In this document: positions 14,384-49,886 of the stretch, one piece after another | How positions within the stretch are numbered: the first letter of the stretch is position 1 | How the letters are laid out: the number at the start of each line of letters is the position of its first letter | DNA from: a virus | Direction: 5' to 3' (one strand) | Virus record (IMG/VR): IMGVR_UViG_3300032156_000007 | Span: 1 to 60,933 of that record | Length of the DNA stretch: 60,933 nucleotides | Program-made: the position numbers and the translations under genes | Notes under the pieces: generated by a model | Told to the model about the DNA's origin: nothing | Seen by the model: the letters and a program-made list of their open reading frames with translations, nothing else | Database searches by the model: none

Positions 14384-15093
14384 CGTTTCGCATCAACCTC
14401 TTGCACGAGCTTCATCCACTCCTGGTCCTCGGAGTGCTCTGGCTCCGAGAGCTTCTCCTTCTTGGTCGGCGGCAGGTTGTACTCCATCCACCGCATCACG
14501 AGGTCCGGCACCGACTTGGAGATGGGCACCCCTGTGAGCGTGGTGATCCCCTTGGGAGAGAACTCACGGGCCTTGAACTTGTTGTAGAGCTTCACCGGGT
14601 GGACACCGAACTGGAGCAGCATCGAGATGGCGATGGCCCAGCAGTTCGCGAAGCCGTTCATCTCGTGACCGGACTTGCCCATCTCTATGAACACCTCACC
14701 GGGGGTGCCGTCGTCGTACACGCTCACGGTGAAGTAGCCCTCCACGTTGACGATCTCCCCGTCATCAGACTGGCTCGCCAGGCTGAACTTGCAGGTGCGG
14801 CTCTTCCGCTCGTCCGCCAAGTGGTAGCGAACCGGATTCGGCTTCCCCTGAGGGGAGGTGCCGTAGGGGGGCGGGCTGTAGTCTACAGGAACCGCCTCAG
14901 GTGGAGGCTCTCCCACTTTCACGTCAGAAGCTACCACCACCGCAGTAACAAGCTCCGCGGCGGGCTCCGCCTCCTTCTTCTCTGGAGGGGGCCAAAGTCT
15001 GACCTCATCACGGTTGGCAGGTTCCTCTTTGATGAGCATGGAACCGCTGTTCCAGATGTTGGTACCTTTGGGGGATTCTGAAGGTTCTGTCAT
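14380..15093 (-). CDS. stand-alone TSCPD-domain protein (ribonucleotide-reductase C-terminal-like)
   Basis: The start is ATG 15093, overlapping the nuclease-glycosylase stop as ATGA; the frame above it is shadow. The product has 237 residues. After a low-complexity Pro/Glu-rich half, residues about 95-215 match the TSCPD domain found at the C-terminus of class II (B12-dependent) ribonucleotide reductase. It shows GYFTVSVYDDGTPGEVFIEM, then ANCWAIAISMLLQFGV, a YNKFKAREFSPKG block and a final DLVMRWMEY. No reductase catalytic domain is present in the window. It may act in trans with a phage or host NrdJ. I am fairly sure of the domain and unsure of the role. Confidence 0.82.
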   Translation of the reverse strand: MTEPSESPKGTNIWNSGSMLIKEEPANRDEVRLWPPPEKKEAEPAAELVTAVVVASDVKVGEPPPEAVPVDYSPPPYGTSPQGKPNPVRYHLADERKSRTCKFSLASQSDDGEIVNVEGYFTVSVYDDGTPGEVFIEMGKSGHEMNGFANCWAIAISMLLQFGVHPVKLYNKFKAREFSPKGITTLTGVPISKSVPDLVMRWMEYNLPPTKKEKLSEPEHSEDQEWMKLVQEVDAKR

Positions 15094-16637: not shown

Positions 16638-16668
16638 GCTGAATCCTGTCAACCGGAAAAAAGCCCAC

Positions 16669-16697
16669 TTGACAAATTCCGACAGAATGATTAGACT
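16669..16697 (+). promoter_or_regulatory. promoter of tnpB
   Basis: TTGACA at 16669-16674 is followed by TAGACT at 16692-16697, a 17-base spacer. The start point would fall near 16704, only a few bases before the ATG at 16708, so the message would be leaderless or nearly so. A reverse-complement TGTCAA at 16648-16653 forms an imperfect inverted repeat with this -35 box and may be part of the element's left end. Confidence 0.45.
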
Positions 16698-16707
16698 TGG
16701 GGATGTG

Positions 16708-17910
16708 ATGGAAATAGCGAGAACAGTCAAAATCAAAATCAACCTGCCCCGAGAAGCTGCTGTTCGAACACTTAATACTTGGACCGAAGCCTGCAACCTC
16801 GTGAGCAGGATCGCTTTTGAAAACGGCTGTTTGTCGAATGCCATTCGACTTCAAAAATTGGCTTACAGACCCGCTAAGGAAGTCGGTTTGTCTGCCCAAC
16901 TTGCTGGCTCCTGCATACGACATGTCGCCAGTGAGTATGTGGCCATCCGTTCTAACAAGCGCAGCCCCAAAGCCCCTTGCCAATTCCGAAAACAAGCCGT
17001 CATACTGCAAGGAGGGACACGCGGGCGCGACGTCTCCCTGCGCGCATCCGGACTCTCTATCTGGACGGTCGACGGGCGCTTCAAAGCAGTCCCTTTCCAG
17101 GGACCGCCCGACCTCGAAGACAAGTTGAACAACTGGAATCTTGGGGATGGTCGCCTCTCGGTGTCCAGGAAGCACGTCTTCCTGACCCTCAGCTTCAAAA
17201 AGGAGGTTGAACCAAGAACAGCCCCGAACGACGCCGTCATCGGCGTAGACCGCGGCATCAACGTCCTCGCCTGCGCCACAGATGGCAAACGCCACTGGAT
17301 GCGCAAGGGTGGGCACACCAAGCATCTTCGTGATCGATACTCGAATGTTCGCGCGTCTCTCCAAAAGAGAAAGGCAGAGCACCCGACGCGCTCCGTCGCT
17401 AAGGTCCTCAAACGGCTGTCTGGCCGAGAGGCGCGATTCATGCGAGCAGTTAATCACGAAGTCAGCAAGGCGGTGGTCACCTTCGCCGAGAGGACAGGAT
17501 GCCCTGTGATCGCCATCGAAGACCTCGAAGGTATCCGGAATCGCCGGCTCCGCAAAGTTCAACGCCGAGAAATTGGACGTTGGGCCTACGGTCAGCTCCG
17601 AAAGTTCATCACCTACAAAGCTGAAGGGCTCGGAATGGTAGTAGTGGGGATCGACCCCCGGTACACCAGCCAGGGGTGCTCTCGATGCGGTCACACTGAA
17701 GCCTCCAACCGCCAAGGCAACCTCTTCCTCTGCAAGGCCTGCGGGCACAGCCTTCATGCTGATCTCAACGCCGCGCACAACATCCGGTTGCGCGGTATCC
17801 TCGCTCGGCAAGCTCTGAGCGAGGATGGGGCGAGTCATGCGCCCCCTAAGTTCGCTCCAACGATCCGGTCTGGAAAACCGGGGAGGAGACGGACAAGCCG
17901 TCAGTTGTAG
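16708..17910 (+). CDS. tnpB: RNA-guided nuclease TnpB (IS605 OrfB family)
   Basis: The likely start is ATG 16708 (MEIARTVKIKINL); the frame upstream overlaps the neighbour and the promoter. The product has 400 residues, a normal length. The RuvC residues are all present: Asp in VIGVDRGINVLA, Glu in VIAIEDLEGI and Asp in HADLNAAHNI. Between the last two lies the zinc ribbon CSRCGH...CKACGH. It is therefore probably an active nuclease that uses an RNA made from the 3' end of its own gene and the flank. It is the only plus-strand gene and interrupts the spacing between the zinc-finger gene and the exonuclease-glycosylase gene. Confidence 0.95.
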   Translation: MEIARTVKIKINLPREAAVRTLNTWTEACNLVSRIAFENGCLSNAIRLQKLAYRPAKEVGLSAQLAGSCIRHVASEYVAIRSNKRSPKAPCQFRKQAVILQGGTRGRDVSLRASGLSIWTVDGRFKAVPFQGPPDLEDKLNNWNLGDGRLSVSRKHVFLTLSFKKEVEPRTAPNDAVIGVDRGINVLACATDGKRHWMRKGGHTKHLRDRYSNVRASLQKRKAEHPTRSVAKVLKRLSGREARFMRAVNHEVSKAVVTFAERTGCPVIAIEDLEGIRNRRLRKVQRREIGRWAYGQLRKFITYKAEGLGMVVVGIDPRYTSQGCSRCGHTEASNRQGNLFLCKACGHSLHADLNAAHNIRLRGILARQALSEDGASHAPPKFAPTIRSGKPGRRRTSRQL

Positions 17911-34180: not shown

Positions 34181-36739
34181 TCAGTAGAAAGCGTCCGGAT
34201 CCTTAGGAGCCGACTGCTTCGAAATATAGGGTTTTTTACTTGTCAGTAAGGCCGCATAACTGAAAGGCATATCCCCTCCAAAATGACGGAACACCTCCAT
34301 CCTGTTTCCTCCGGGCTGAAGCTCTCCCTTCCACCCACGAGCGTAATTCACGTTGACCGCAGTGTCACAAGAGCTGTTGACAGCAATGCTATGCTGGCAG
34401 CTCACGATGTTCGCCACGTAGTTCCTCTGCCTCCAGTATAGAGGTCGGTTCACCATCAATCCGAAGTGCGGCAGGATCTGTATATTCAAGGACCTTGCCT
34501 CGGAGTTAGACCTACGGAGATCGATAGCGGCGAAGACCGCAGCCGCCTCATCGGTCACCACCTCCGTCCAAGGGCTCTTCTCAGAGGCAGGTCGGAAACC
34601 CAAGAGACCGGCCAGCTCGGGGGCTATCACGAACTGGGTATGCCGCGTGTCTCGGTTGTTCAGATCTTGTCCCTGTTTCGCGATATTCCCTGGGGTACAC
34701 CTCGCTACGGTTTTTAAACCGCTGTCACTCACTGCGTTGCTGAAGCCGTAGGTCTCATGCTTGTCTATAGTGAAATATGCCCCGTAGTTCATCTCCCCAC
34801 CGTCGGTCAGGGAGGCATAACGAGTGGAGCCCGACTCAAAGGCATGCTCGGATCCGTAGCCCTCAGTGAGAAGACTGAGGTCCGAAGACATCTGCATCAT
34901 CTCGTAGATCTGGTCTTCCGTGTATTTGGTACTACCCTCAGCCCACCCCTGCAAGTTCTCCCGCGCAGTCTGAATCGCGGATTCGATGTCCGCGTTGCTA
35001 ACGGTAGCCCCTTCGTAATCGAACATCCAAGGGTCGAAATCGTAGAAAGGCATCTCGAAGACGAGATCACCCTTGGGAGTGGCGTAGAAGCAGAACTGGA
35101 TCTGATCCGCTGCATCGTACAGAAAAGTAAGACGATCCTTGAACTCGGAGTGCAAGCCGCCCCCGGCCCCGGCCATCATCTCATTCAGAACTCCCGAAGC
35201 AGTACCCATTGCCAGCCCCGAGGGCGCGACATAGAATACACGGCCCCCGCCAACGGGGTAGTCCTCTTCGTGCTGCCCAATCTGAGTGATAATGTCGTAA
35301 GGTGTCGTCATCTGCGACTTGTAGGCCTGGGCGGCTGCGGTCTTCCCCATGATCTCCGGATCCTTAGAAGTGACTCGATGGTGGATGTAATCGTTCAGTT
35401 TCCGGAGTTCGGCAACATCGAGATGCTCACCACCCATAGATTCTTCCAAGGACCACCCAAGACGGGCGGCCTCCAGCATCGTGGGAGGAGGACTTCCAAG
35501 GAATATAGCATGAACGCCGTACTTCTCGTTCTTCCTCTTGAACATCGCCTCTCCGCGAGGATTACAGATCGGCGGAAGATTAGCGCCAGTAAGCCGATTG
35601 AGCTTATAACCCTCCAGATACTGCTTCAAGAGCTTCGTATTCTCTGTGGGGCTCAACGCCGCGATCTCATCGGCGCTCATACCAGTTGCGGTATTCATCA
35701 AGTAGATGTTACCTTCCGCGGTACTCATGAACGCAAGGGCGTAATCAGTCATCTCGGAAAGGGTTCCCCTATAGGAGTCCAGACCGAAGAAGAGGAGTTC
35801 CAAAATCTCATACACGGAGAAATAAGCAAACAGCTCCTGATATGGCACCCAGTTTATGGAACCAACGTTCTGGAAAATCGGGAACAGAGCGGCCATCGCA
35901 GGATCAAGAACCGCATCGACATTCATCTGGAAGAAGGAGTACCGCGCCAGCTTGGACACGTCAGTACCCGAGATAGTAACAACAGACTCCTGGTTCACCC
36001 CGCGGTCCTCCACAAAACCATCCACGAAGCCAGCGAACATCCAATACCAAACAGTGGGACTAAATGGATCCCTGAACGCGATCCTGATGGGGTCATTGGG
36101 ATGGAAAATGCAATCGCCTTCAGTGAGGGGATACACATACCGCGCAGTGGTGTCCCCCTCGAAGACGTTTTGGTACATAGGATCGTCTTTTTTGTCCGCA
36201 TAGAGTTCATCCCATTTCGGAATGATAACACTGGACTTCTTGGCAAGGACTACCGGCTTGATGGTCGCAGGCACGGATCCGTACGTCCAGTTGTTTCCGC
36301 CCTGCGCGGTTTTCAATTTTTTATAAAAGTCATCTACCACCCCGGCCATCTCCGCCGATTGCTCAGAATTCATGTACTTCTGCATATACTTGTACACTTC
36401 AGCAGGATCTTCACCAGCATTGTCCGCCTGAAAACGTTGCGTGCTCATATAAGCAGTCTGGTTCTGTCCCAGGGTAGTCGCCAGCCAGTCTCGACTACTG
36501 GCGATCACCGTCATGTCCATGTGGTCCAAGATGTACTTGTCACCCATGTTAGCCAGAGCGATAGTGCACGTCCCCGGGGACCGATCCATGCTTCCACCGG
36601 ATTGATTCACCCTGACTTCAATGACGTCCCCGGACACTTCTTGCCCATAGATGAAAACACGAAAAGCCGGGAACGCTGCACGGTAGATCCCTTCCTGGGA
36701 TGAGGTTCCAGTAGCCTGATTTTTCAATATACCGTCCAT
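34181..36739 (-). CDS. large baseplate hub-like protein
   Basis: This 852-residue protein starts at ATG 36739. It opens with a strand-rich segment (FPAFRVFIYGQEVSGDVIEV, then VNQSGGSMDRSPGTCTIALA) typical of hub proteins that cap the tail tube and bind the spike. A further strand region describes DPIRIAFRDPFSPTVWYWMFAG (residues about 222-243, about 20 residues of the pattern are clear). The C-terminal third resembles hub domain folds (LNIQILPHFGLMVNRPLYWR). Its position next to the spike gene supports a hub role. It is about twice the size of T4 gp27. Confidence 0.6.
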   Translation of the reverse strand: MDGILKNQATGTSSQEGIYRAAFPAFRVFIYGQEVSGDVIEVRVNQSGGSMDRSPGTCTIALANMGDKYILDHMDMTVIASSRDWLATTLGQNQTAYMSTQRFQADNAGEDPAEVYKYMQKYMNSEQSAEMAGVVDDFYKKLKTAQGGNNWTYGSVPATIKPVVLAKKSSVIIPKWDELYADKKDDPMYQNVFEGDTTARYVYPLTEGDCIFHPNDPIRIAFRDPFSPTVWYWMFAGFVDGFVEDRGVNQESVVTISGTDVSKLARYSFFQMNVDAVLDPAMAALFPIFQNVGSINWVPYQELFAYFSVYEILELLFFGLDSYRGTLSEMTDYALAFMSTAEGNIYLMNTATGMSADEIAALSPTENTKLLKQYLEGYKLNRLTGANLPPICNPRGEAMFKRKNEKYGVHAIFLGSPPPTMLEAARLGWSLEESMGGEHLDVAELRKLNDYIHHRVTSKDPEIMGKTAAAQAYKSQMTTPYDIITQIGQHEEDYPVGGGRVFYVAPSGLAMGTASGVLNEMMAGAGGGLHSEFKDRLTFLYDAADQIQFCFYATPKGDLVFEMPFYDFDPWMFDYEGATVSNADIESAIQTARENLQGWAEGSTKYTEDQIYEMMQMSSDLSLLTEGYGSEHAFESGSTRYASLTDGGEMNYGAYFTIDKHETYGFSNAVSDSGLKTVARCTPGNIAKQGQDLNNRDTRHTQFVIAPELAGLLGFRPASEKSPWTEVVTDEAAAVFAAIDLRRSNSEARSLNIQILPHFGLMVNRPLYWRQRNYVANIVSCQHSIAVNSSCDTAVNVNYARGWKGELQPGGNRMEVFRHFGGDMPFSYAALLTSKKPYISKQSAPKDPDAFY

Positions 36740-36750
36740 CTAGGTCTCCG

Positions 36751-37515
36751 CTACTCAAGCTCATTGAAGAATTGGGTCCCCAACGAGAGTGAAATGTACC
36801 TAAAAATATCATCCATGGATGGCATCGTCTCCGTCGCCACGAAGCTGAACGAGTAGTTCTTACTAAACGGGTTGGACGCATCGTCCGTGAATTCCAAAAC
36901 CCGGTCAAAATACCCAATGAATGTAATCATGGCGTTACCTAAGATAGGGCTCGTATACATAAAGTAGGACTTATTCGGAATTCCGGAAAACGGATCTATC
37001 ACGGGTTCCCGCGTCATGCTGTATAGATTCCAGAAGTTCAGCAACTTCGAAGCACCCGCCAAAGTCTCTACATCAAGGCCCTCCTGCTTCGTCTGCGATT
37101 TCAAAAAGTCACGGAGCCTCTTGGTCTGCTTGGAGACCACACTGTTTCGTTGCATCCCCGTCCTGATATTTATGTTCCCCGTACTTCCCGAGAACGCTAT
37201 ATTGATAACGTCGTTGTTCCGACCCTTCGCATTGGTCCAGTGAAAAAACACCGCGCCAGACTGAGTGTCCCTCCTGGTGATCCTCTTGTTCTGCGTAAAG
37301 GTCACCGTCTCGGGGTTCATCTTCATACGCACAGGATCGATGTCGTTCCGAGTCCTGTGATCCGAACTGAAGACAAAAGGAACCCGGTAAGACACATCCT
37401 CGTAGGGATTAAGAATTCGCTCAAGTATACGCTCAGCAGAAGGGGCTTGGATCCCATTGCTAGTACCGAAGGCCTCCATCATGTTCTTCCAAAATTGTTG
37501 CTTCGTAATAGCCAT
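36751..37515 (-). CDS. baseplate/tail protein (conserved myovirus type)
   Basis: The likely start is ATG 37515, with AGGTG six bases upstream; a TTG at 37530 is an alternative. The product has 254 residues. It contains RMKMNPETVTFTQNKRITRR, VINIAFSGSTGNINI and SPILGNAMITFIGYFDRVLE. This pattern (an NP-x-T-x2-x-x-NKRI motif, then a GSTG strand) is common to tail proteins encoded between tape measure and hub in large myoviruses. Its exact place in the baseplate is not known to me. Confidence 0.65.
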   Translation of the reverse strand: MAITKQQFWKNMMEAFGTSNGIQAPSAERILERILNPYEDVSYRVPFVFSSDHRTRNDIDPVRMKMNPETVTFTQNKRITRRDTQSGAVFFHWTNAKGRNNDVINIAFSGSTGNINIRTGMQRNSVVSKQTKRLRDFLKSQTKQEGLDVETLAGASKLLNFWNLYSMTREPVIDPFSGIPNKSYFMYTSPILGNAMITFIGYFDRVLEFTDDASNPFSKNYSFSFVATETMPSMDDIFRYISLSLGTQFFNELE

Positions 37516-37548
37516 GTATACACCTATCAAACCCCGCCGGAGGCAGGG

Positions 37549-40284
37549 CTATTGAAATACGGCTTCGCCCTCAACCCGTTTCCCCGTCTCTTTGTCCCAC
37601 ATACCTCCTGCGATGGGGACAACCAGACCTCGGCCCTTTTTCCAACCAGATCCGCTTTCATGCCCACTACCTGTGGGGCGGTGGATGAACCTCGTAGCCC
37701 CCTTCGTCCAGTCTCCAGTACCCTTATCCCCACGAAGAATGCTACGCGCGAAGTCTATGGTCTCCGGATCCGGACGGGCTCCTGAAGCAAAATTCCTTCT
37801 GCCGGCCTTCCCGTACTTCTTGTTCCCAGCATCGCTCGCTCCCCAGCCCTTCTCGGCAGTAATGGCCTTCGCGAGCTTACCCCCTCCACCCTTTTTGAGG
37901 CCACCTACGCGGTTCAACGCAGTCCAAGCGATACCCAGCTGTTCCTTTCTACGGTCATCTCGGTACCTGCCGGACTCGCTCTGAATCATCCGTGCCAGAG
38001 CCTCCACGTCCTCACTGGTAAAAGAGCCCTCTTTGGACAATTGCATACTAGAGAACGTCCCTGGAGCGCCTCCGTAACCGCTGATATTGGTGAAATCGAA
38101 CCCGCACCGAGGACAATTTCCCGAGATGAGGATATTGATGCTCCCCTCGGCATCCACACTCTGCACCTGAAGATGCAAACCCCCACCGACCCATTTGTCA
38201 CCCCAGTCCTGAACAGAACCTGCCTTGGTGCCCTTCGCACCTTTAGGAGACGAAGCCCCAGGAACAGGTCGAGGGGGTACGATGTCCTGAGTGAAAGGCG
38301 ACCCCTTCTCCAGATCCGCAGCAGGGATGTTGATACCCCCCAAGACTGGGGTACCACCACCTTTAGGAGATTTGGACAGAGAGCTAGACCCGTACGGATC
38401 GTAGTCCCAAGCCTTCTTCAGGGCCTGCAACGAGGGCCCCATGATGTCGCTCGCCATGCCCTTGGCGGAGGCAATCATCTGGTCGAGGCCGCGTCCCATC
38501 TTTGCTTTGTTCTTCCCCTGGTTGCCCAAAAGGTCTTCAATATCTTGCGCCAGTTCCCTTTGTGCCGTGGTATCATGAGTAATGGCATTGACAATGAACT
38601 GCGGCATGGCCTTGAGGTATGCAATGAGGTATGCCAAAGCGGTTATGATGTATCCCATCAGCCCCTGACCAAAGTTAGCCAAGCCCTTCAACCACTTGTT
38701 CATCATGAGTTCAAACTTGCTTCTTTTCTCTGCCTCCGTATGAAAAGAGTTCTTCAGAATAGTGATGTTATCCTTCGTTGCTCGCGCGGCCTCAACCATA
38801 TTTCCTTCGCGAGCGTGCTTCCCAATAGTAGCGATCAAGCGGGCCCCCTCAAACCCCAGGCCCATAGAGGCTTCCATGAAGTACCGGGCTGCATCTTCAT
38901 CTTCCCCAGTAGCCTTCATCGCCATGTCGTAAATGGTAGTCACAATGTGAACGACCTCATTTGTGTCCTCCCCATCAAGAACACGCAAGAAGGCGTCCAT
39001 CATCTTCTGTCTCGCTTCCAAGCCCTTCCCGTACCCCAAACGCTCTCCCAGGGCGACCTTCCAGTTGTCACCCATCTTTGCCACGCCACCAGCGAACTGT
39101 TGGAGACCAACGGCCGCCTGCTTCCCGGCAAACTGCTTGGGCACCCCCATCTTCGAGAAGGCATCCGTAACGTGCACATAGATGTCCACTACGTTATCAA
39201 TATTATAGCCCATCCGAGCCAACTCGGAACTAGCGTCCTCGACATTCTTCACGAACTGCATGGCACCCACACCAGAGTCCCGACCGACCATGTACATGCG
39301 GAGAAGGGAATCCTTCGCCTCATCAGCCGTCTTCCCATAATCCGCCATCATGCCGACCATCCGCTTCGCGCTCTCCCCGCCCGGAAGTTCAAACATCTTA
39401 TCCAAGGCAAGAGTCACCGTCACCGCGTTCGATTCCACATCCTTGAAGACTGACTTCATCGGAGACATCATCTGGGAGACGCTGAAGCCTCCGTCAACGA
39501 ACGCCTGCGCGGTAGCCTGGATTTCTTCACGTTGGATGCCCAAGAATCTCTGGAAGGTTTCTTGAATCGCAGACAACCGGGAAGTACCTTTTGCGAGCGC
39601 TCCCTTGACGCCGTCATCGTATGCTGCAATGAGAATATTTTTCATCTCTCCCGACTGAGCACGAACACGATCCCTATCCATGTACCCGTAAGCCATGATG
39701 CCAATGAATCCCGCCACGATAGCCGCGGGCTTGGGTATCTTCAACTTCGACATCATCCCGCCGATCCTACCCTTGACAGTCCTCACTTCTGAGGTGAGGT
39801 ACCTCCCGATAGGACCACGCTTTTTTTTCTTCCCCTTGGATCCTTTGGAAACGACCCCTCCTTGAGTCGTACCACCTCCAAGGCCGCCCCCAACGCCCTC
39901 GCCATCGTCACCCTCAGAGGGTGCAGTAGCCTCTGCCACCGCGGCCTCTGCCCTCTTGGAGAGGCTCTCAAAGCCCTGCTCGGCACCAGTTATCGCCCCC
40001 CGCATCCCCTCGAACACGGAATCGAACTCTGCTGAAAGACCGCTGAACTTACCTGCTATGGAACTGATGTACTCCTCGCTGGCTCCGATGGCTTTCGCGC
40101 CTTCCAGCAATCGAGGATCACCCGATATTTCGTCAATAGTTGCCTTGAAGCCCTCTCGCAAGCTGTCCAACAGCGAATCGAAGGACTCGGTGTTGGCACG
40201 AGACATATCTGTAATTGCAGCACCAAGATCCGTAAATCTGGTACGGGCCTCTTCGAGCTGCTGGATGTCAACCAATCCACTCAT
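37549..40284 (-). CDS. tape-measure paralogue 3 with SleB-type cell-wall hydrolase domain
   Basis: This 911-residue protein shares a core of about 230 residues (near 39010-39690) with the two genes upstream, including GYMDRDRVRAQSGEM, GIQREEIQATAQAFVDGGF, ALDKMF and KQFAGKQAAVGLQ. A Gly/Ser-rich linker with one CPRC follows. The C-terminal part, from about residue 750 (LARMIQSESGRYRDD, then LGIAWTALNRVGG), matches the cell-wall hydrolase family of SleB, with the Glu in SES as likely catalytic residue. It would measure tail length and open peptidoglycan during DNA entry. It is the only one of the three copies with the hydrolase. Confidence 0.85.
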   Translation of the reverse strand: MSGLVDIQQLEEARTRFTDLGAAITDMSRANTESFDSLLDSLREGFKATIDEISGDPRLLEGAKAIGASEEYISSIAGKFSGLSAEFDSVFEGMRGAITGAEQGFESLSKRAEAAVAEATAPSEGDDGEGVGGGLGGGTTQGGVVSKGSKGKKKKRGPIGRYLTSEVRTVKGRIGGMMSKLKIPKPAAIVAGFIGIMAYGYMDRDRVRAQSGEMKNILIAAYDDGVKGALAKGTSRLSAIQETFQRFLGIQREEIQATAQAFVDGGFSVSQMMSPMKSVFKDVESNAVTVTLALDKMFELPGGESAKRMVGMMADYGKTADEAKDSLLRMYMVGRDSGVGAMQFVKNVEDASSELARMGYNIDNVVDIYVHVTDAFSKMGVPKQFAGKQAAVGLQQFAGGVAKMGDNWKVALGERLGYGKGLEARQKMMDAFLRVLDGEDTNEVVHIVTTIYDMAMKATGEDEDAARYFMEASMGLGFEGARLIATIGKHAREGNMVEAARATKDNITILKNSFHTEAEKRSKFELMMNKWLKGLANFGQGLMGYIITALAYLIAYLKAMPQFIVNAITHDTTAQRELAQDIEDLLGNQGKNKAKMGRGLDQMIASAKGMASDIMGPSLQALKKAWDYDPYGSSSLSKSPKGGGTPVLGGINIPAADLEKGSPFTQDIVPPRPVPGASSPKGAKGTKAGSVQDWGDKWVGGGLHLQVQSVDAEGSINILISGNCPRCGFDFTNISGYGGAPGTFSSMQLSKEGSFTSEDVEALARMIQSESGRYRDDRRKEQLGIAWTALNRVGGLKKGGGGKLAKAITAEKGWGASDAGNKKYGKAGRRNFASGARPDPETIDFARSILRGDKGTGDWTKGATRFIHRPTGSGHESGSGWKKGRGLVVPIAGGMWDKETGKRVEGEAVFQ

Positions 40285-40285
40285 G

Positions 40286-42580
40286 CTATGGTGTCCCCAT
40301 CCTTGGATTCAACGTCGGGTACTGCTCCACCTGAGACTGTAACACAGCATTTCCCAAATCTTCTGTAGATATTGGGGGCTGGGCCGGATTGATCACTGGG
40401 CCGGAAGAGGCCCCCACCGCAGGCTGTGCGGTGCGTTCTCGCGCTTTCGGATCATCCGCTCCTACGTTCCTGGTGACCAATACATTGGACAATGCGGTCG
40501 CCACTGCCCCGCCGAGAATACCCGTCGCGGAGACCAACTTGAAGTGCTTCTCCGCAGGTCCTTGCAGACCTGTCCCCTCCAGCAACTCCTCCTCATGACG
40601 AAATCTCTTCTCCTGTTCGGCTTCGGGATCTCCAAAAACACCACCCCACGAGTCCTTAGGATCGGTCTTCATCCCTCCAGGCAGTGGTGGCGGAGGGGGT
40701 GCCTTGGGATCCCAGCGCATAGCTCCAATAGCGGGAGCGAGAGAGTCCCCAAACTCCTTCCCTAAGGCCGTCAGAACTCCATCCGTACCCTTCAACATCA
40801 GGTCCCACCCATCGGCCATATTTTTAAAAACCTGACGATTCGCGTAATACATTTTCAACTTGAGTCCATAAGCAGTGCGGCCCCCCGAGCCCTCTTCACC
40901 CTGAATCATCATAGACTTCAATCCGAGTATGCAAGCCGCGATGAGAGAAACCAATATCGCCATAAGACCAACCCCGATGTTCGACATGGAAGTAACCAGC
41001 TCACGACGGGTCTTAAACAACTCGGAAACCATCTTTCCTTCCGTAGTAAAGGCCTGCTTCAGATTAGCGCGAGCCTCCTTCGACATACTTTCCAGGGTAT
41101 CACCCTTCTCTAAGATCCCCAAGGTATCGACCAAGATCGCCGCCGAACGGTTACTCGTTCGTAGGTTCTGCTGCACGGCCAAGATCGCCTTACTTCTTTC
41201 AGGAGTCGTTCTCTTAATAACCAGAGTCCCGTAAGAACGAATGAGAGACTCCAAAAAGCTCTCGTCCTTCCCGGAAGAAATCCTACGAAGACCGTCACTG
41301 AACCGAATAAGAAGCTCATGTGCATTCGATTCAGTATCTTTGAAAATGTCTCTCGCCAAGGCCACTTTCATTTGGTCATCCATCTTCGTGAACGCCGTCA
41401 TGAGGTCCACAGCGACCCCCTCCACCTCACGGCCGGCGTACTGGGACTCCAAGCCCATGCTCGCGTAGTGTCCTAACAACTTCTCCACGAAAGAACCAAC
41501 GGTCTCTGCGTTGATGCCCATATTTGAGAGAGGATCCGCAGCAGCCATGACGATACGAGTAAAATTACTGACCCCTATGGAACTCCGCTCTCCCGCAGCG
41601 GTCATCTTTACGGTCAGATCCGCCGCAGAGTTGAGTGACATCCCGTAATCACGAACTAGGGTTACGATGTTCTCCATCGATTCCGATGTAGAAAAGTTGT
41701 AATGTTTTCCCAACCCAAGAGAGAGGGTAATAACGTTGTGCCCTACACGCCCCAGACCCTTATCGTAGCGCCTCAAAGCGTCAGTAGCAGAAAATCCATT
41801 GTCTACCATCACCTTGGCAGCAGCCTGGACCTCTTTACGACCCACACCCCAGTACCACTGCGCCCGCTCACCCCAATTCGCAAACCAACGAGTAGCCTTC
41901 CGTCCCGCAGCAGACATGACACTGTCTACACTGCCCTCGAAAATGTTAGCCATCTCCCCCATCTCGGCACGACGTCGATTATGCTCCGTGTATCCGAGAG
42001 CAATAGAACCTATAACAGCACCAAGAAATCCTGAAGAAAGCTGACCAGGGATGTTACTCAAGATACTCTTAATTTTGTCCTTGGTCTTCTTCATCTCCTT
42101 TTCAACAAACTCAATCAGCCTGGAAGTTCTCTTCTTATGCCTCTTGACCATCTCCTCGGCAGAGGTAACAGAAATGTAGATTCTGGATTCCGCACCATCG
42201 AGCTTCTGCTCTGCTTTCCGAGGATCTATTCCAGCTAAAGAAGACTCCTGAACCTGCTGCACCGCCGCCGATGCGGTGTCCGCAGCGCCAGCCCCCTCTT
42301 CGGAAGGTCCAATATTCTCAAAAACCCCTTTGAGGTCACCGACACTACGAACAGCACCATCAATAGCACCCTTGATGCGCTCAGCCTCCGCAGAAAAAGC
42401 AACAGCAGGAGAGGGCATAGAAGTAGGAACGGATGCAGACGCCAAGGAGCCCAGAGAGACCTTCATGTCACGGCCCAGGAGTTGTACTGCCGAGCCCAGG
42501 TCCGTGTACGTGCGGTGTACAGAATCAACCTGGTCACTCAGGTCCGCAAGATCCAGGTCTATCAAAAAAGAGTTCTCCAT
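40286..42580 (-). CDS. tape-measure paralogue 2
   Basis: This 764-residue, mainly helical protein has a core near 41340-42000 that aligns with the flanking genes: GYTEHNRRRAEMGEMANIF, YWGVGRKEVQAAAKVMVDNG, LGKHYNFSTSESMENIV, GHYASMGLESQYAGREVEG. Hydrophobic segments such as GVGLMAILVSLIAACILGL are typical of tape-measure proteins, which fill the tail lumen and pass into the host envelope. It begins seven bases after the upstream copy. The C-terminus is proline-rich and has no hydrolase domain. Confidence 0.85.
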   Translation of the reverse strand: MENSFLIDLDLADLSDQVDSVHRTYTDLGSAVQLLGRDMKVSLGSLASASVPTSMPSPAVAFSAEAERIKGAIDGAVRSVGDLKGVFENIGPSEEGAGAADTASAAVQQVQESSLAGIDPRKAEQKLDGAESRIYISVTSAEEMVKRHKKRTSRLIEFVEKEMKKTKDKIKSILSNIPGQLSSGFLGAVIGSIALGYTEHNRRRAEMGEMANIFEGSVDSVMSAAGRKATRWFANWGERAQWYWGVGRKEVQAAAKVMVDNGFSATDALRRYDKGLGRVGHNVITLSLGLGKHYNFSTSESMENIVTLVRDYGMSLNSAADLTVKMTAAGERSSIGVSNFTRIVMAAADPLSNMGINAETVGSFVEKLLGHYASMGLESQYAGREVEGVAVDLMTAFTKMDDQMKVALARDIFKDTESNAHELLIRFSDGLRRISSGKDESFLESLIRSYGTLVIKRTTPERSKAILAVQQNLRTSNRSAAILVDTLGILEKGDTLESMSKEARANLKQAFTTEGKMVSELFKTRRELVTSMSNIGVGLMAILVSLIAACILGLKSMMIQGEEGSGGRTAYGLKLKMYYANRQVFKNMADGWDLMLKGTDGVLTALGKEFGDSLAPAIGAMRWDPKAPPPPPLPGGMKTDPKDSWGGVFGDPEAEQEKRFRHEEELLEGTGLQGPAEKHFKLVSATGILGGAVATALSNVLVTRNVGADDPKARERTAQPAVGASSGPVINPAQPPISTEDLGNAVLQSQVEQYPTLNPRMGTP

Positions 42581-42587
42581 ATGTTCC

Positions 42588-44954
42588 CTAAGGAGGAGGT
42601 ACCCTCTGCGCCTCCGCTTTGTTAGACGCTGTTTTTATAAGACCTCCATCAACCTTGGCATTCGCGCCACCAACATTCTCAGGCATCTCTGTCTGGTAGT
42701 CATCATACTCTGGTGAAGCATTTTCTTTAGCCCTACCCTTATACCGGGCCTTCTCAACAGCGGCGAGCTTATCGGGAAGATCCTCAGCCGCCACGGCAGC
42801 GTCCTCCCAGGAATCATGAGAATCCAGAATAGCTTGTTCCGGATTTTCATTAAGAGATCTCCCAAAAGAAGAAGAATTAAGATCATACAACTTGCGAAGA
42901 AACCAAGCCTTCACATGTGCGTACCCTTGCGCTGCTTGTATATCTAGCTGCCTCTTGAACTCTTCATCCGTAAACATCTGCAAAAAGTCATCCTTCAGCT
43001 CTTTGAGAGCAGCTTTCGCCTCTGCTGCGGAGGTTATAGTCTTAACGCCACCCTCCGATGGAGCGTCCCATTTGAGGACATCAATTATGGGTTGAAGATC
43101 GTTCTTGAACTCCGTCTTCATCGCCGCAGCAGCATCTTTAAGACCGGTGTTGGCCGCATCAATTCCGGCACTCATACTAACACCCAACTTGTCGTATTGA
43201 GCCCTAATATCCACAAGAAACTTTTTGTCGCCGCCGGGTAAAGCAGCGGCAATAATCTCCGGAAGATACTTGATGCTGAGTACAATGGCCCCTACCAAAC
43301 CTGCCAAGACCTTCAGGAGGCCCTGACCAATGGCAGAGATCGCATTAGTAAGATCTCTTGTCAGCTTCGCAAGATCAGAAATCTTCTCACTCTCAGTAGA
43401 AAGAGCGTTTTTGATGAGCCCTTGCTGCTCGACAGAAAGCTCCGATAACTTATTGCCCTTCGCCAACTCGGTAGTCGCATCGTACAAGCCGGCAGCGGTC
43501 CTGTTATCACCAATCTTGGACTCTATGAGGCGGATCGCCTGCGCCCGGGTCTTGCCTCCTTGAGAGGCCCACTCCCTCAGAGAAAGAAGTGTCCGAGTAA
43601 CGAAGTCCTCGCTGCCGGACTGACGCGCCCTCTTGAAGCCGTCCTCCCATTTCTGCCTAGCATCCACACCTGTCAGCTCGGGAAACATCCTCTGAGCTAT
43701 CATGGCTTTCATGGAAGGGTCCATCCCCGCGATCCCTTGTGAGATCCCGTTGATGAAATTAGTTGCCTGGTTTCCTGCATACTGGGGGCTGAGACCCATC
43801 TTCTCGTAGTGCTTCTGGATGGTGCCCATGATACCGGCAACCTCGGCCACATCAACACCGTACTGCTGCATGGCAGAAGCCCCAGAAATGACGGCATCGG
43901 TGAACTTGCTGATGCCCATGGCACTCTTCTGACCAGCAAACGCGATCCTAGAATACTTGTCCGTCGCCTCCTGCAAGCTGTCTCCCAGGGACGTAGTGAT
44001 CTTGATGATGTTGCTGATAGAGGTCCCAGTATCCTGATTGAAATGCTTATCCAACGCGATGGACATAATACCGACATGCTGGCCCGCAGCACCCAGGGAT
44101 GAATTGAACGTAGCCATGATCTCGTGGGCCTTGTAACCGGCGTCGACCATGGCCTTCAGAACACCTTGGGTTTCCTCACGGGCGATTCCGTAGTACCACT
44201 GCGCAGTCTCCTGGAATTGGGAAAACCACGATGTTACCTTTCTAGACGCATCGGAAGATACAGCTTCTCCCGAAGCCTCTATAACATTCAGCATCTCCCC
44301 TTTCTGTGCCTTGAGACGGTCCCGCTCCGTAACCCCCAGAACCATCGCTGCAAGGAGCCCAGATACTATGCCCCCACCCAGAATCCCTCCAGGAACGTGG
44401 CTTGCGATCTCCTGCGCCTTGCCCGCAGCTGCTTCCAGCTCGGACTCCAAATACTTTTTGACACGGTTCACATCCTCTTCAGACTTCTTATCCGTGTCAG
44501 CGACAACTCGAATAACGTTCTCAGCGTTCTCTTGGGCAATCTCAACGGAAGCACCTGCAAACGCAGCACCTTCCAGCATGACAACCACCTGGCTCTGAGC
44601 CTGCTCCATCGCCGCCCCGGAGGAACCCGACGCCGGGCCCCCAGAAGCCTTCATCCGAGACACTTCACTGGCGATCTTAATGCCGTGCTGAGAAACGGTA
44701 TTCAGCATCTCCGAAAAAGATCCAGTGCCCTCCTTTATGTGCTGGATGGAACGCTCCATCTGCGGATTCAACGAACCGATCATCGTGGTGACGCTCGACG
44801 CCCGGGTCTGCAACGTGTTGAGATCCCCCGAAACCGCAGAAACAAGGGCCCGCAACGACCCGCCAAAAGCCGTGTAGGACTTAGTCGCCTCCGAGATCTG
44901 GTCTCGGAACTTGTCGAAGTCCCACCGCAACAAATATGATTCTACCTGAACCAT
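42588..44954 (-). CDS. tape-measure paralogue 1
   Basis: This 788-residue, mainly helical protein directly follows the tail-assembly chaperone genes, the standard tape-measure position. Its core near 43680-44330 (GVTERDRLKAQKGEMLNVI, YGIAREETQGVLKAMVDAG, ALDKHFNQDTGTSISNIIK, EKMGLSPQYAGNQATNFING) is shared with the two following genes. A hydrophobic stretch ILSIKYLPEIIAAALPGG-like (VLSIKYLPEIIAAALPGG) follows the core. It lacks a lytic domain. Confidence 0.87.
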   Translation of the reverse strand: MVQVESYLLRWDFDKFRDQISEATKSYTAFGGSLRALVSAVSGDLNTLQTRASSVTTMIGSLNPQMERSIQHIKEGTGSFSEMLNTVSQHGIKIASEVSRMKASGGPASGSSGAAMEQAQSQVVVMLEGAAFAGASVEIAQENAENVIRVVADTDKKSEEDVNRVKKYLESELEAAAGKAQEIASHVPGGILGGGIVSGLLAAMVLGVTERDRLKAQKGEMLNVIEASGEAVSSDASRKVTSWFSQFQETAQWYYGIAREETQGVLKAMVDAGYKAHEIMATFNSSLGAAGQHVGIMSIALDKHFNQDTGTSISNIIKITTSLGDSLQEATDKYSRIAFAGQKSAMGISKFTDAVISGASAMQQYGVDVAEVAGIMGTIQKHYEKMGLSPQYAGNQATNFINGISQGIAGMDPSMKAMIAQRMFPELTGVDARQKWEDGFKRARQSGSEDFVTRTLLSLREWASQGGKTRAQAIRLIESKIGDNRTAAGLYDATTELAKGNKLSELSVEQQGLIKNALSTESEKISDLAKLTRDLTNAISAIGQGLLKVLAGLVGAIVLSIKYLPEIIAAALPGGDKKFLVDIRAQYDKLGVSMSAGIDAANTGLKDAAAAMKTEFKNDLQPIIDVLKWDAPSEGGVKTITSAAEAKAALKELKDDFLQMFTDEEFKRQLDIQAAQGYAHVKAWFLRKLYDLNSSSFGRSLNENPEQAILDSHDSWEDAAVAAEDLPDKLAAVEKARYKGRAKENASPEYDDYQTEMPENVGGANAKVDGGLIKTASNKAEAQRVPPP

Positions 44955-44957
44955 GCT

Positions 44958-45788
44958 CTACTTCATCACATCCAGAGTCACCACGGGACGATCATCTACC
45001 TTAGGAGTGGGCTTGCTCAGGCCTAGATCCACCTCTTCCAACTCCGGCGCTCCTTGAGGTTCAAGAACCTTCTTGCCATACTGGTTTTTTATATCTGAAC
45101 GAACCCTCCCAATAGTTCTTGCACTCTTCTCCACAAGGGGATCATCTCCAAGATCATCCTTGGATAACACGAGGTTCTCCAAGAGCATCTGCGTGTCGCG
45201 TCCGCCCCAATTCATGGCCTTGAGGAGGTCTTCCGGAGCGTTTTCGAACTCAACATCCCCCTCGTCCTTCATGAACGCTTCCAGCGCCTCAGGGGTCAGC
45301 TCCGCGACTCCGGTATTAACAGTCACTCCGTCCTTGCGAGCAACATCAGCGACTTCCAGCTGCTGAAGAACTTCCTGCTGGTTGATGTACTCTTCCGTCC
45401 TACTTTTTATCGCTGCCAGGACATTATCGTTTCCGATAAGAAGCACGAGAGGCAGACACTCCTCATCCCCCGGAAGACGTAGCCTTCCAGTTCTTTCGTC
45501 TTCGACCGGAAGCAAGTTCAAACCCAGCATGGAGACCACTTGCTTCCTCACAGCCTCAGAAATAGTCCGGATGTCGTCATAGCGTTGCTTCTCCTGAAGG
45601 TTCATCGACTCCAGCTCAAAAATCCACTGGGTATCGTTCATTCCTTTCAGCCGAGGATCCCCTAACGGGATCATCCTCTTGGTCAGGACCTTCGCCTTGA
45701 TCCTGAGCTTTGCTACTAGCCTTCTCCAGATGGGGTAGATTCGGTCCCAGTGGGCTTCTCGCCCTTCTCCGAACCCACCCCTGAGGAT
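44958..45788 (-). CDS. tail-assembly chaperone, frameshifted extension (T part)
   Basis: This reading frame has no start codon with a usable ribosome binding site; the first ATG, at 45674, has none well placed. It is entered by a -1 slip at the A-heptamer 45794-45788 of the upstream gene. The fused product would be 151 residues of the G part plus 276 residues here, about 427 in all. The sequence is charged and helical (NLQEKQRYDDIRTISEAVRK). In tailed phages the G-T fusion guides tail-tube assembly on the tape measure and is not in the virion. The tape-measure gene follows immediately, as expected. Confidence 0.8.
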   Translation of the reverse strand: MLRGGFGEGREAHWDRIYPIWRRLVAKLRIKAKVLTKRMIPLGDPRLKGMNDTQWIFELESMNLQEKQRYDDIRTISEAVRKQVVSMLGLNLLPVEDERTGRLRLPGDEECLPLVLLIGNDNVLAAIKSRTEEYINQQEVLQQLEVADVARKDGVTVNTGVAELTPEALEAFMKDEGDVEFENAPEDLLKAMNWGGRDTQMLLENLVLSKDDLGDDPLVEKSARTIGRVRSDIKNQYGKKVLEPQGAPELEEVDLGLSKPTPKVDDRPVVTLDVMK

Positions 45789-46240
45789 TTTTTTATGTTG
45801 CCCTGGGCGGCCTCCCTGCGTTCTTCCAGAGCCTTCCAGTATTTCCACAGGTCTTCCAGCATCTCCGGAGGCCTCGCGCCCAGCCACTCCATCATGTGCT
45901 CGGCAGAAAAATACTTCTGCGTGAAGGTGCCTTTGCTCTCCACAAGACGGAGAAGGTTCCGCCCCTCTTCGGTCTCCTCCCATTGAGAACGGAAGAACTC
46001 GAAAATGGGGACACCATCGACCTCGCGAATACCGATAGAGAGCGTCGGGAGCCTCCAGGAGGTGACGGTGGACAACCCGCTGCCCATGTTGATGAAGCCA
46101 TTCCTCCAGTTGGACTCCTCCTCGTTCAGAAGACGAATTCGGAATTTCCGGCCCTTCCAGGTAAACACCTCCTCCAGGCACTCACCGTCGAGTTCCTTCG
46201 CGAGGTCGTCCAAGATTCTTTTCGGATTGTCCGTCGACAT
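45716..46240 (-). CDS. tail-assembly chaperone (G part)
   Basis: This 174-residue protein lies between the tail tube and the tape measure, the conserved place of tail chaperones. It has an N-terminal strand-rich domain (EVFTWKGRKFRIRLLNEEES) and helical second half. Codons ATA-AAA-AAA near residue 149 form the A-AAA-AAA slippery site; without slipping, translation ends 26 codons later at TAG 45716. Most ribosomes should make this short form, and a minority the fusion. Confidence 0.85.
   Translation of the reverse strand: MSTDNPKRILDDLAKELDGECLEEVFTWKGRKFRIRLLNEEESNWRNGFINMGSGLSTVTSWRLPTLSIGIREVDGVPIFEFFRSQWEETEEGRNLLRLVESKGTFTQKYFSAEHMMEWLGARPPEMLEDLWKYWKALEERREAAQGNIKKSSGVGSEKGEKPTGTESTPSGEG
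45788..45794 (-). promoter_or_regulatory. programmed -1 ribosomal frameshift site
   Basis: On the minus strand seven A residues are read in frame 0 as A-AAA-AAA, an ideal X-XXY-YYZ slippery heptamer. After slipping back one base, the next codons continue the open frame that ends at 44958. The arrangement agrees with the known frameshift between tail-chaperone genes of tailed phages. A following stem was not confirmed by eye. Confidence 0.8.
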
Positions 46241-46295: not shown

Positions 46296-46901
46296 CTACA
46301 TCAACCGTCGCATCTTTACATACACTAAAGTGGCATTAACGAGTATTAAACGATCTCCTTGGGCTTGCATTACCCGTCCGAGACTCGTAAACCAGCAGCC
46401 CGTGTACCAATTCTTCTCAACCGTGACTTCCTGGCCCGCTCCGGCACGACCAATGTCGATCCCTTCAAGCTCGTTCGCAGTTCCAAGGCCCAAGGCCTTG
46501 CCGAACTTCTTCGATCCGATCTTATCCAACAACGAAGAAGTTGTGACCAACTCCATGCCCGGAATCAGAGGCTTTTCCTTCGTTCCGAACTTGATCCACT
46601 TCTCTTCGATGTCGATGGGGTTGTGCTGATCCGTCAGGGCCCACAAGGGCTTCGGCATCCCCCAGATCTCTTCCATCTTCTGGGTGTAGAGATCATACCG
46701 AGTCACCTGGAGGGTCTGTGTGGTCGCCACTCCCGGGACGGCCTCAATGGGCGCTCCGGTCCCGACCGCATTGATCTCGAACTTGAGCTTAACGTCACGA
46801 GCCTGACTTGGGCTCCAATTCTGAATCCTCCCTATGGTCACGTCCGCTGCACGGAGCGTTATAGCATGACTTGTTCGGAGTTCAGTGCGTGGTACAGGCA
46901 T
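46296..46901 (-). CDS. tail tube protein, larger paralogue
   Basis: This 201-residue protein is homologous along its length with the next gene upstream. The shared start is MPVP-x-T-x-x-RTSHAI, followed by IGRIQNW, VTRYDLYTQKMEEIWG, CWFTSLGRVMQAQGDR and a final LVNATLVYV. Relative to that paralogue it has an insertion of about 50 residues around residues 115-165 (SLLDKIGSKKFGKALGLGTA). The size and position between sheath and chaperone genes identify tail-tube proteins, which form the inner tube through which DNA passes. Confidence 0.85.
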   Translation of the reverse strand: MPVPRTELRTSHAITLRAADVTIGRIQNWSPSQARDVKLKFEINAVGTGAPIEAVPGVATTQTLQVTRYDLYTQKMEEIWGMPKPLWALTDQHNPIDIEEKWIKFGTKEKPLIPGMELVTTSSLLDKIGSKKFGKALGLGTANELEGIDIGRAGAGQEVTVEKNWYTGCWFTSLGRVMQAQGDRLILVNATLVYVKMRRLM

Positions 46902-46906
46902 GGATC

Positions 46907-47353
46907 CTACGTCATCTTTGTACAGGTGACGTACGCCAAGGTGGCGTTGACGAGCACAATCCTGTCACCTTGGGCCTGCATGTTGCGTCCGAGTTGAGAG
47001 AACCAGCAACCGTAGTAAACGAAGCTCTCATTCAGCCCAGGACTCGACCACTTCTCAGTGATTTCTAGGGGGGTGAGCTGATTTGAAAGCATCCACAAGG
47101 CCGCCGAGGTACCCCAAACCTCTTCCATCTTGGAGGTGAACAAGTCGTAGCGGCTCACCTGAATGGTCAGACCCGTGATGTTGCCCGGAACGTTCTCGGT
47201 CACAGTTCCAGAACTCTCAGAACGAAGCTCATACGCTGGCGTAATGGTCTTCGACTGGGTTGGAGCCCACGTCTGGATCTGACCGATAGTGGTTCTACCC
47301 GCGCGAATGGAGATCGCATGGCTAGTACGAATTCCTGTGCTAGGGACTGGCAT
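46907..47353 (-). CDS. tail tube protein, smaller paralogue
   Basis: This 148-residue protein lies directly after the sheath gene, the usual tail-tube position. It has the beta-rich tube pattern (TIGQIQTWAPTQSKTITPAY, VSRYDLFTSKMEEVWG, GRNMQAQGDRIVLVNATLA). It is a close paralogue of the following gene but lacks that gene's insertion, so it is the better candidate for the main tube subunit. Confidence 0.87.
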   Translation of the reverse strand: MPVPSTGIRTSHAISIRAGRTTIGQIQTWAPTQSKTITPAYELRSESSGTVTENVPGNITGLTIQVSRYDLFTSKMEEVWGTSAALWMLSNQLTPLEITEKWSSPGLNESFVYYGCWFSQLGRNMQAQGDRIVLVNATLAYVTCTKMT

Positions 47354-47378: not shown

Positions 47379-49886
47379 CTAGGCGGGGCTGAAGAACGGG
47401 TTGTCGACCGAGTACTCACCGAAGAACCGCTTGGCCGGATACTTCAGGTTGTACCAGTACTTGAAGTAGAAGGTCCTGGGATCAGTCGTAGACTGATACA
47501 CCACGATGTCCGTCGTGGCGTCGATGTCCCGCGGCAATCCTGACGGGTCGCGGTAGGACGCAATCGAGCCGTTGTTGATGTTCGCCGTGATGCCGAGCAA
47601 GATCCACTTCTTGCAGTCCGAAATGAAGTCGCTCAGATCGTCCGGCACCACACCGATGACGTTGCTCGCGAGCAGCGTGTCGACGGTCTTCGTGACCGCG
47701 TCCTTCTGGGCGCTGGAGGCCGGCTCCTCGAACTGCACCACCTTGGCACCGCCGGCCTCGGTGGAGATCGGATCGAGCATGACCAGCCGGCCGGCATCGA
47801 GCGTGACCACGAGGACGCCCTTGTCCGCCAACGTATGCCGCTCGCCGCGGAGGTACGTCCCGAAGCCCTCGGTCTTGAAGCCGGTGATGAACTTCCCGAT
47901 GAGCGCCGACGAGGGGCTCGGGAGAGCCGTGTAGACCGACGCGACGGCGACCGCGATGTAGGTGCCATCCACGTTGAGATCGATCTCCTGACTCGTATCG
48001 AGCTTGATGGTGCGAGTCGCATCACCCGGAGAGACCAGGAACAGACGCCCGCGGCCCGGAGAGGTGTTGCCCGGCTGCAAGGTCTTGGTCGACCGATAGA
48101 CGAAGGTGTTCGGCGTGTCGGGGTCCCCGACGTCCGTGCCCCGCGCCATGCCGAACCAGCCGCGCCGGTAGTGCTTCTCCAGCATCGACGACTGGTCCGC
48201 GACGTGCAGCATCTGGTACACCGCAGTGTCGAGCGCAGTGTCGATGGTGACGACGTCCGTGACGGTCGAGTACTCCTTCGCAGCATCGAGCGCGGAGTTG
48301 ATCTCCAGCTGCGTCGGCGTGCCGGGGGCCACCGAATCGTTGATCTGGAAGAGGTACACCGAGGAGACGCCGTTCTCGAACGCGATCTCTCCTGCCACGC
48401 AGAGCTTGTTGACCAAGTAGTTCTGCATCGTCAGCTTGGTCGTGTACTGGTAGAGCTGATCCGGATCGTACACACGGTGTCCCGTCGTGTAGTCCGTGGC
48501 CGGGCGGACGTAGTCGTACGTGCAGTAGTAGTTCGTCCCGAACGCCGGTCGCTTCCCGGTGCCCTGGGCCGTGTAGGGCAGCGTGATCGCGCCGAACAGC
48601 GTCGTGAAGGCGTTCGCAGCGGTCGCCCGGAACTGAATCGAGCTGGCGACACCCTTCTCCGGGAGGTAGTTCTCGAAGTCGTCCGGGCACCGGATCCGCA
48701 CCGTGTTGCCCACGACGACCGCCATGTGCGAGAACTCCGGGCCGTACGCACTCGCAATCGAGGCCAGCGCGGCGTTGATGTCCGCGGCCACAATCGCCGG
48801 AGTCGTCGGAGCGCCCGGGGTCAAGGTCACGAGGACCTGGGTGCGGTTGTTGATGGACATCAGGAGCTTGTCGTTGGTGGCCGCCACGATGGTCGGCGGG
48901 AAGGCGACGAAATCCAACGTGGTCGCCGTCGCCTGCAACCAGGTCGTCACATCCCAGTCGACATCGTTGGCGATGCCAACTTCGTAGTCCGTGTTCTTCG
49001 TGTAGTCCACACCGCCCGGGTACGAGCCGAGGTAGTTGATGTCCGACAGAGGGGTCGAGGTGCCGGCATTCGTGAGAGCATCGGTGAGGATGTCGACCGA
49101 CACGTAGTCCAGAGTGTAGACGGCAGACGACGTATACGCCGCGTCGAACACCTGGAGGCGCGTCGGCGCTTGGACGCCGGCACCGACCGTCGGCGTCCAT
49201 GCCGCGGTCGAGATCGTGGACGCTCCGTCGAGCGCCGCGTTCGGGGAGATGAACACCTTCACGTCGGAAGCAGGCTCTGTCGAGGGGGACGTGAGGGTGA
49301 TGATCTCGTTCACCAGGCCCACCGCGTGGGTCGCCACGGCAGCGTAGGTCAGACCGTAGATCAAAAAGAACGGCCCGAGCGCGTTCGCCAGAGCGTAGTT
49401 GATGGAGTCACAAATGTTCGCCGCGGTAGCCGTCGCGGCGGGGACGCCGCAGACCAGAGGCACCAAGGTATCGAAGTTCAGAGTGACGGCCCGCTTCCCG
49501 TCGAGAGCCAATGTGAAGTACGGAGTGCCGGTCGCCAGGGAGACGTCCACCGTCACGCCGGCCCACTCGGTGCCCACCAGACGCGCAGCCAGGAACTGCC
49601 AGTCCGAGAGCCCCAGCGGGTTCCCATTCATGTAGATCTGGGCGCTGTTCCTGGACCTGTTCGAGGTGTTCGCCAAGGTTCCTACGTGAGGAGACCCGAC
49701 GGTCAGCGTCAGCGTCTCGTCGTAGATCTTCCCACGGGTGACCGGCTCGTCCACGCTTCGACGAGTGCGCGGAGCGATGGCGAGGATGCCCAGTGTGCGT
49801 TCGGAGGTGACGGAAACCGCACCAGGGACAATCACTTCCGCGATGTACACGCCTGGATCGACATATTTCGAAATGCTGATTGCCAT
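47379..49886 (-). CDS. contractile tail sheath protein
   Basis: This 835-residue protein starts at ATG 49886, about ten bases after AGGGAGG. The N-terminus (ISKYVDPGVYIAEVIVPGA) is the typical sheath start. The C-terminal domain shows a long helix-strand pattern with DTLLASNVIGVVPDDLSDFI and DIVVYQSTTDPRTFYFKYWY, and ends in a strand that would join neighbouring subunits. It defines the phage as a myovirus. Codon third positions look unusually GC-rich compared with the tape-measure genes, consistent with strong expression. A putative late promoter is 50-80 bases upstream. Confidence 0.93.
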   Translation of the reverse strand: MAISISKYVDPGVYIAEVIVPGAVSVTSERTLGILAIAPRTRRSVDEPVTRGKIYDETLTLTVGSPHVGTLANTSNRSRNSAQIYMNGNPLGLSDWQFLAARLVGTEWAGVTVDVSLATGTPYFTLALDGKRAVTLNFDTLVPLVCGVPAATATAANICDSINYALANALGPFFLIYGLTYAAVATHAVGLVNEIITLTSPSTEPASDVKVFISPNAALDGASTISTAAWTPTVGAGVQAPTRLQVFDAAYTSSAVYTLDYVSVDILTDALTNAGTSTPLSDINYLGSYPGGVDYTKNTDYEVGIANDVDWDVTTWLQATATTLDFVAFPPTIVAATNDKLLMSINNRTQVLVTLTPGAPTTPAIVAADINAALASIASAYGPEFSHMAVVVGNTVRIRCPDDFENYLPEKGVASSIQFRATAANAFTTLFGAITLPYTAQGTGKRPAFGTNYYCTYDYVRPATDYTTGHRVYDPDQLYQYTTKLTMQNYLVNKLCVAGEIAFENGVSSVYLFQINDSVAPGTPTQLEINSALDAAKEYSTVTDVVTIDTALDTAVYQMLHVADQSSMLEKHYRRGWFGMARGTDVGDPDTPNTFVYRSTKTLQPGNTSPGRGRLFLVSPGDATRTIKLDTSQEIDLNVDGTYIAVAVASVYTALPSPSSALIGKFITGFKTEGFGTYLRGERHTLADKGVLVVTLDAGRLVMLDPISTEAGGAKVVQFEEPASSAQKDAVTKTVDTLLASNVIGVVPDDLSDFISDCKKWILLGITANINNGSIASYRDPSGLPRDIDATTDIVVYQSTTDPRTFYFKYWYNLKYPAKRFFGEYSVDNPFFSPA

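Follow-up and report, generated by a model that had tools for sequence, protein, structure and literature searches.

Three tandem paralogous genes for predicted tape measures, one with a putative hydrolase domain, in an uncultured contractile-tailed virus

The ruler that sets tail length is normally made of several copies of one protein. Published tape-measure structures differ in being trimers or hexamers: the diffocin tape measure CD1366 (817 aa) forms a homotrimeric coiled coil along the whole tube (PMC11329794), and that of cyanophage A-1(L) is a six-fold bundle ending in three helices (PMC10966104). Muralytic domains fused to tape measures have been described for TM4 and phiIPLA35 (as cited in PMC3556154 and PMC11329794) and for phiCbK. 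Tape measures, oligomeric bundles, and fused hydrolases are each already known. Here, we describe a locus with three paralogous tape-measure genes in a 60,933-base uncultured virus record from IMG/VR; the whole of this stretch is called the window.

The locus and its three paralogous products

We read the gene order on the minus strand, on which all genes of the locus lie. As transcribed, it begins with a contractile tail sheath (47379..49886; 51% identical to its homologue in the related genome L016, which itself matches annotated sheaths), two tail-tube paralogues (46907..47353 and 46296..46901, both called from phrog_985 and synteny), and two tail assembly chaperone-like genes, the first of 174 aa (45716..46240; homologues at 60% and 37% in L005 and L006) and the second just before the tape measures (44958..45674; homologues in the same two genomes). 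The three tape-measure genes follow, and then a tail tube initiator (36751..37530), called from a PF23980 match below the cut-off (E 0.0048), phrog_1011, and its conserved neighborhood, and a baseplate hub candidate (34181..36739), called from its position and its homologues in L005, L006, and Rctr197k. Copy 1 (42588..44954, 788 aa) and copy 2 (40286..42580, 764 aa) have no hydrolase, and copy 3 (37549..40284, 911 aa) has a putative one at its C-terminus. All three are complete open reading frames with no internal stops, separated by 1–7 bases, and the tandem, near-abutting arrangement described in an earlier note on this DNA was exact in its coordinates. The triplet is not an assembly artefact, because the same triplet recurs in eight other distinct viral genomes.

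Several features of the neighboring genes were also recorded. The chaperone pair consists of two separate genes, like the two-gene form of Bacillus phage 0305phi8-36 (PMC2147016); a possible frameshift was checked, and the second gene starts at an ATG of its own (45674), past the point where the first one ends and without overlap. Two tail-tube paralogues are also present in L016, L036, L059, and L052 and one in L006, L019, and L037, with no evident link to tape-measure number. The sheath of L005 (4385-7525, 1046 aa) is about 200 residues longer than those of its relatives, with an apparent internal insertion. Elsewhere in the window, a 5'-3' exonuclease (PF02739, PF01367) and a uracil-DNA glycosylase domain (PF03167) are fused in a single minus-strand reading frame (15090-16844), a combination that looks unusual.

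The three products are clearly paralogous, as the earlier note had held subject to a pairwise comparison: BLASTP gave E 6e-75 for copies 1 and 2 (31% identity over 497 residues), 1e-39 for copies 1 and 3, and 2e-38 for copies 2 and 3, all far above chance, and the cores were homologous in every pair. A shared core thus stood, but its length of about 230 residues did not: the common region covers about 420–500 residues and includes both flanking hydrophobic helices and the domain between them, with a core identity of about 25–32% among the three. In copy 1 it spans residues about 190–575 (43230..44387), comprising hydrophobic helix 1, a globular helical domain, and hydrophobic helix 2; the counterparts lie at 40877..42046 in copy 2 and 38572..39738 in copy 3. 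Every copy keeps the core, the second hydrophobic helix, and the N-terminal length, and in clade I, the phylogenetic group that includes the window (see below), the first hydrophobic helix of copy 3 tends to be weaker.

These genes are placed between the tail chaperones and the tube initiator and hub. Matches to Pfam TMP_3 were below the cut-off (E 0.0009 for copy 1 and 0.051 for copy 3), and PhageMin_Tail was found in 3 of 32 family members (best E 0.00049). The AlphaFold model of copy 1 (pLDDT 71) has long N-terminal helices, a hydrophobic helix, a globular helical domain (residues about 235–522), and a second hydrophobic helix (527–571). Its named matches in BFVD were mostly viral tape measures or minor tail proteins (best E 2e-8), with low TM-scores of about 0.2–0.35, and PDB fold searches with the same model returned nothing beyond common helical arrangements. 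Together with the gene order, the BFVD matches point to tape measures. We regard this assignment, which the earlier note had also made, as a secure call from synteny, the weak TMP_3 matches, and the predicted fold of copy 1.

The C-terminus of copy 3 (37552..38115) contains a GNCPRCG module (Cys724) followed by a SleB/Hydrolase_2-like domain with Glu770 as the putative catalytic residue. A direct Pfam scan found no hydrolase there; the region matched, at E 2e-21, a profile of relatives carrying PF07486 (Hydrolase_2), of which two members score above the Pfam cut-off and two below. Glu770 is invariant in eight homologues. The model of the domain is of low confidence (pLDDT 63.6) and has no PDB match. 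In copies 1 and 2, the Pfam scan detected no hydrolase of any kind. From these profile comparisons, copy 3 is the sole copy in the window with a SleB-like C-terminal domain, which upholds the earlier claim that only the last copy bears one. The module ahead of the hydrolase (residues 696–730, window about 38095–38200) ends in GNCPRCG and is kept across clade I; its CxxC is a possible metal site.

Copy number and the enzyme-bearing copy among relatives

We searched for relatives of the locus. A tblastn search with the three copies against 50,697 phage records gave no matches, and the only clear relative among these records is Rctr197k (KX853510), with one gene. No encoded relative turned up when bacterial and archaeal genome contigs were scanned with a profile. 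In IMG/VR, scans with profiles of the tape measures and of the sheath, together with Rctr197k, yielded 24 distinct genomes with a countable locus; these relatives are uncultured large contractile-tailed viruses with genomes of up to 212 kb. Three copies occur in nine genomes (the window, L005, L006, L008, L010, L018, L019, L020, and L021) and two in ten (L015, L016, L037, L043, L044, L048, L052, L061, L065, and L067). The remaining five have one copy (L036, which is Rctr197k, L059, L064, L066, and L069), with position as the sole basis for L069, and position together with a weak core-profile match as the basis for L064 and L066. No genome of the 24 had more than three. Many records are fragments, so an extra copy elsewhere in a genome is possible; when entire records were searched, the counts for the two- and three-copy genomes, L036, and L059 did not change. 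The number three is not universal: two copies are found in close relatives, and one in those farther away.

In a 52-sequence tree, the hydrolase chain (copy 3 and the chain labeled b) of clade I separated from the other chain (a, copy 1, and copy 2), and copies 1 and 2 were sisters (support 94/90). In clade II (L006, L019, and L021), the three copies grouped together (91/90), with copies 2 and 3 as sisters (99/95); in this clade, the tube initiator gene lies between tape measures 1 and 2, not after the last. A further two-copy case is clade III (L061 and L065). A single shared triplication was rejected, since forcing copy 1 or copy 2 into one clade gave p 4e-5 and 3e-5 in the 52-row tree and 1e-9 and 3e-47 in the 32-row tree. 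A third copy must therefore have had at least two independent origins, one in clade I and one in clade II. Within clade I, gain in the three-copy line and loss in the two-copy lines were not told apart (p 0.24–0.30), and a separation of A from B older than clades I and II gave p 0.19.

Copy 2 has orthologues in L005, L008, L010, L018, and L020, and copy 3 in every clade I genome. In clade I, the trees of the individual paralogues agree almost completely, indicating that the set was inherited together. Tandem duplication is common, and the copies might be passive duplicates without separate function, but full-length orthologues are kept in fixed order across deep divergence (core identity with the window of 55–69% in L008 and about 35–40% in L037), and we consider this reading very improbable.

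Exactly one copy bears a hydrolase in each of the 19 multi-copy genomes, some calls being weak, and five enzyme families fill this slot: SleB, M15, SLT, glucosaminidase, and M23. Hydrolase_2/SleB was found in L016 and L037 and below threshold in L052 and L067; the window, L005, L008, L010, L015, L018, L020, and L044 are SleB-like by profile. Peptidase M15 occurs in L043 and L048, glucosaminidase in L019 and L021, SLT in L006 (weak, E 0.0097), and M23 in L065 and, weakly, in L061 (E 0.0058). No hydrolase was detectable in the remaining copies of these genomes or in the single-copy proteins. The divided labor suspected in the earlier note, with the lytic domain on one copy, is thus a conserved rule across the multi-copy genomes. 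L048 carries M15 whereas its closest relative L044 is SleB-like, and the CPxCG module ahead of the enzyme is kept, indicating that the enzyme was exchanged while the module stayed. Clades I and II carry the enzyme on the last gene. Clade III carries it on the first, and there the M23-type paralogue lies at 14441-17371 in L061 and 14436-17339 in L065.

Chain length and the assembly of the three chains

Measured from the N-terminus up to hydrophobic helix 2, chains have a mean length of 510 residues in one-copy, 536 in two-copy, and 537 in three-copy genomes, whereas the summed length is 690, 1717, and 2466 residues, respectively. Because the length per chain stays constant while gene number goes from one to three, a parallel bundle is favored over three proteins stacked end to end along the tube with additive lengths. 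Of the physical options raised in the earlier note, the bundle therefore gained and the end-to-end composite lost ground. Long tails are frequent among large genomes such as these, and the sum of 2463 aa is within the range of long single tape measures, e.g., phiCbK gp95 (1964 aa, PMC3556154). However, the chain is just as long in one-gene relatives whose sheath, tube, and hub are homologous; stacking would thus make tails with homologous sheath and tube differ about 3.5-fold, whereas parallel chains would make all of them similar. A full-length N-terminal region and hydrophobic helices are also present in every copy, and we judge stacking improbable. The tape measures that have been studied run as parallel sets of three or six chains. 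The expected tail would be about 370 nm if lengths were summed (0.15 nm per residue) versus about 110–135 nm for one chain.

We therefore favor, with a probability of roughly 0.6, the reading that the three proteins assemble into a single hetero-oligomeric tape measure in which one type of chain bears the enzyme. The three chains, A, B, and C, would lie parallel and in register, filling the tail tube, as ABC if trimeric and A2B2C2 if six-fold. Every chain would bring its own long coiled coil at the N-terminus, its globular helical domain, and the hydrophobic helices of an injection pore. Only the C chain would continue, at the tail tip, as a peptidoglycan hydrolase that clears the wall after sheath contraction. 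Such an assembly may have started as a single-gene oligomer in which duplication let one chain specialize as enzyme carrier, and a later duplication may have diversified the non-enzyme chains (AAA to AAB to ABC). It is plausible that a narrow lumen or tip takes one folded enzyme better than three. More tentatively, and at somewhat less than even odds, the product may be an obligate heterotrimer reached at least twice by duplication from a homo-oligomer, the broken three-fold equivalence of the lumen allowing exactly one cell-wall hydrolase per trimer. We infer co-assembly of the three chains, as well as their stoichiometry, register, and timing of action.

Some observations weigh against the bundle. 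The constant length could reflect shared ancestry alone, two-copy genomes mean that three distinct chains are not obligatory, and clade III has its enzyme on the first gene instead of the last. Residual chain lengths within a genome were not correlated between chains (r −0.33, n = 14), which gives no positive sign of fine register.

Alternatively, one copy may be the length ruler, and the other two may sit inside the tube or tip, without any part in setting length, as proteins that are ejected to serve as pilot, pore, or enzyme. Such a division would suit core identities down to about 25–32% and a clade I copy 3 with a weaker first hydrophobic helix and an enzyme, and other phages do eject accessory proteins. 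An accessory protein, however, would not have to preserve the core, the second hydrophobic helix, and the N-terminal length that all copies share, and the stop at three copies, seen twice, would be left unexplained; we hold this arrangement to be unlikely, if the best of the alternatives. Paralogues on separate genes could also assemble separately, each copy being its own ruler in mixed virion populations or in tails for different hosts. But the nearly equal lengths would make the mixed tails alike in length, two of the three tail types would lack an enzyme, and the clade I copies are inherited as a set, which makes separate homo-oligomers less probable even than stacking. With one, two, or three equal-length chain types at hand, the choice between trimer and hexamer, on which published structures disagree, becomes testable.

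Comparison with known tape measures

In the open-access literature, with most subscription papers and preprints outside the search, we found no description of several paralogous tape measures in one tail; mentions of two tape measures that we checked concerned chaperones or comparisons of two phages. Nor did we find described, in the open-access literature, the repeated gain of a third copy or one slot with exchangeable hydrolases. The locus is of interest as a protein ruler evolving from a homo-oligomer to a probable hetero-oligomer, and as a fixed tail-tip slot into which unrelated cell-wall hydrolases appear to be swapped.

In layout, with a globular helical domain and a hydrophobic segment beside a coiled coil, the proteins described here resemble diffocin CD1366, in which the globular domain and transmembrane helices are likewise predictions, and their chains would also run parallel in the tube (PMC11329794); CD1366 is a homotrimer from one gene, whereas the present locus has three paralogues, of which one bears a putative hydrolase. 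Cyanophages A-1(L) and Pam3 share the contractile tail and the helical bundle in the lumen, which is predicted here, but theirs is a six-fold bundle ending in three helices and encoded by one gene (PMC10966104). Rctr197k (KX853510), the closest deposited relative, shares the order of sheath, hub, and tape measure, each homologous to its counterpart here, but its single tape-measure gene (669 aa) has no detectable hydrolase. As in TM4, phiIPLA35, and phiCbK, each of which to our knowledge has a single tape measure, a putative hydrolase is fused to a tape measure; unlike in those phages, only a single member of a paralogous set bears it, and the family of enzyme that fills this slot is exchanged.
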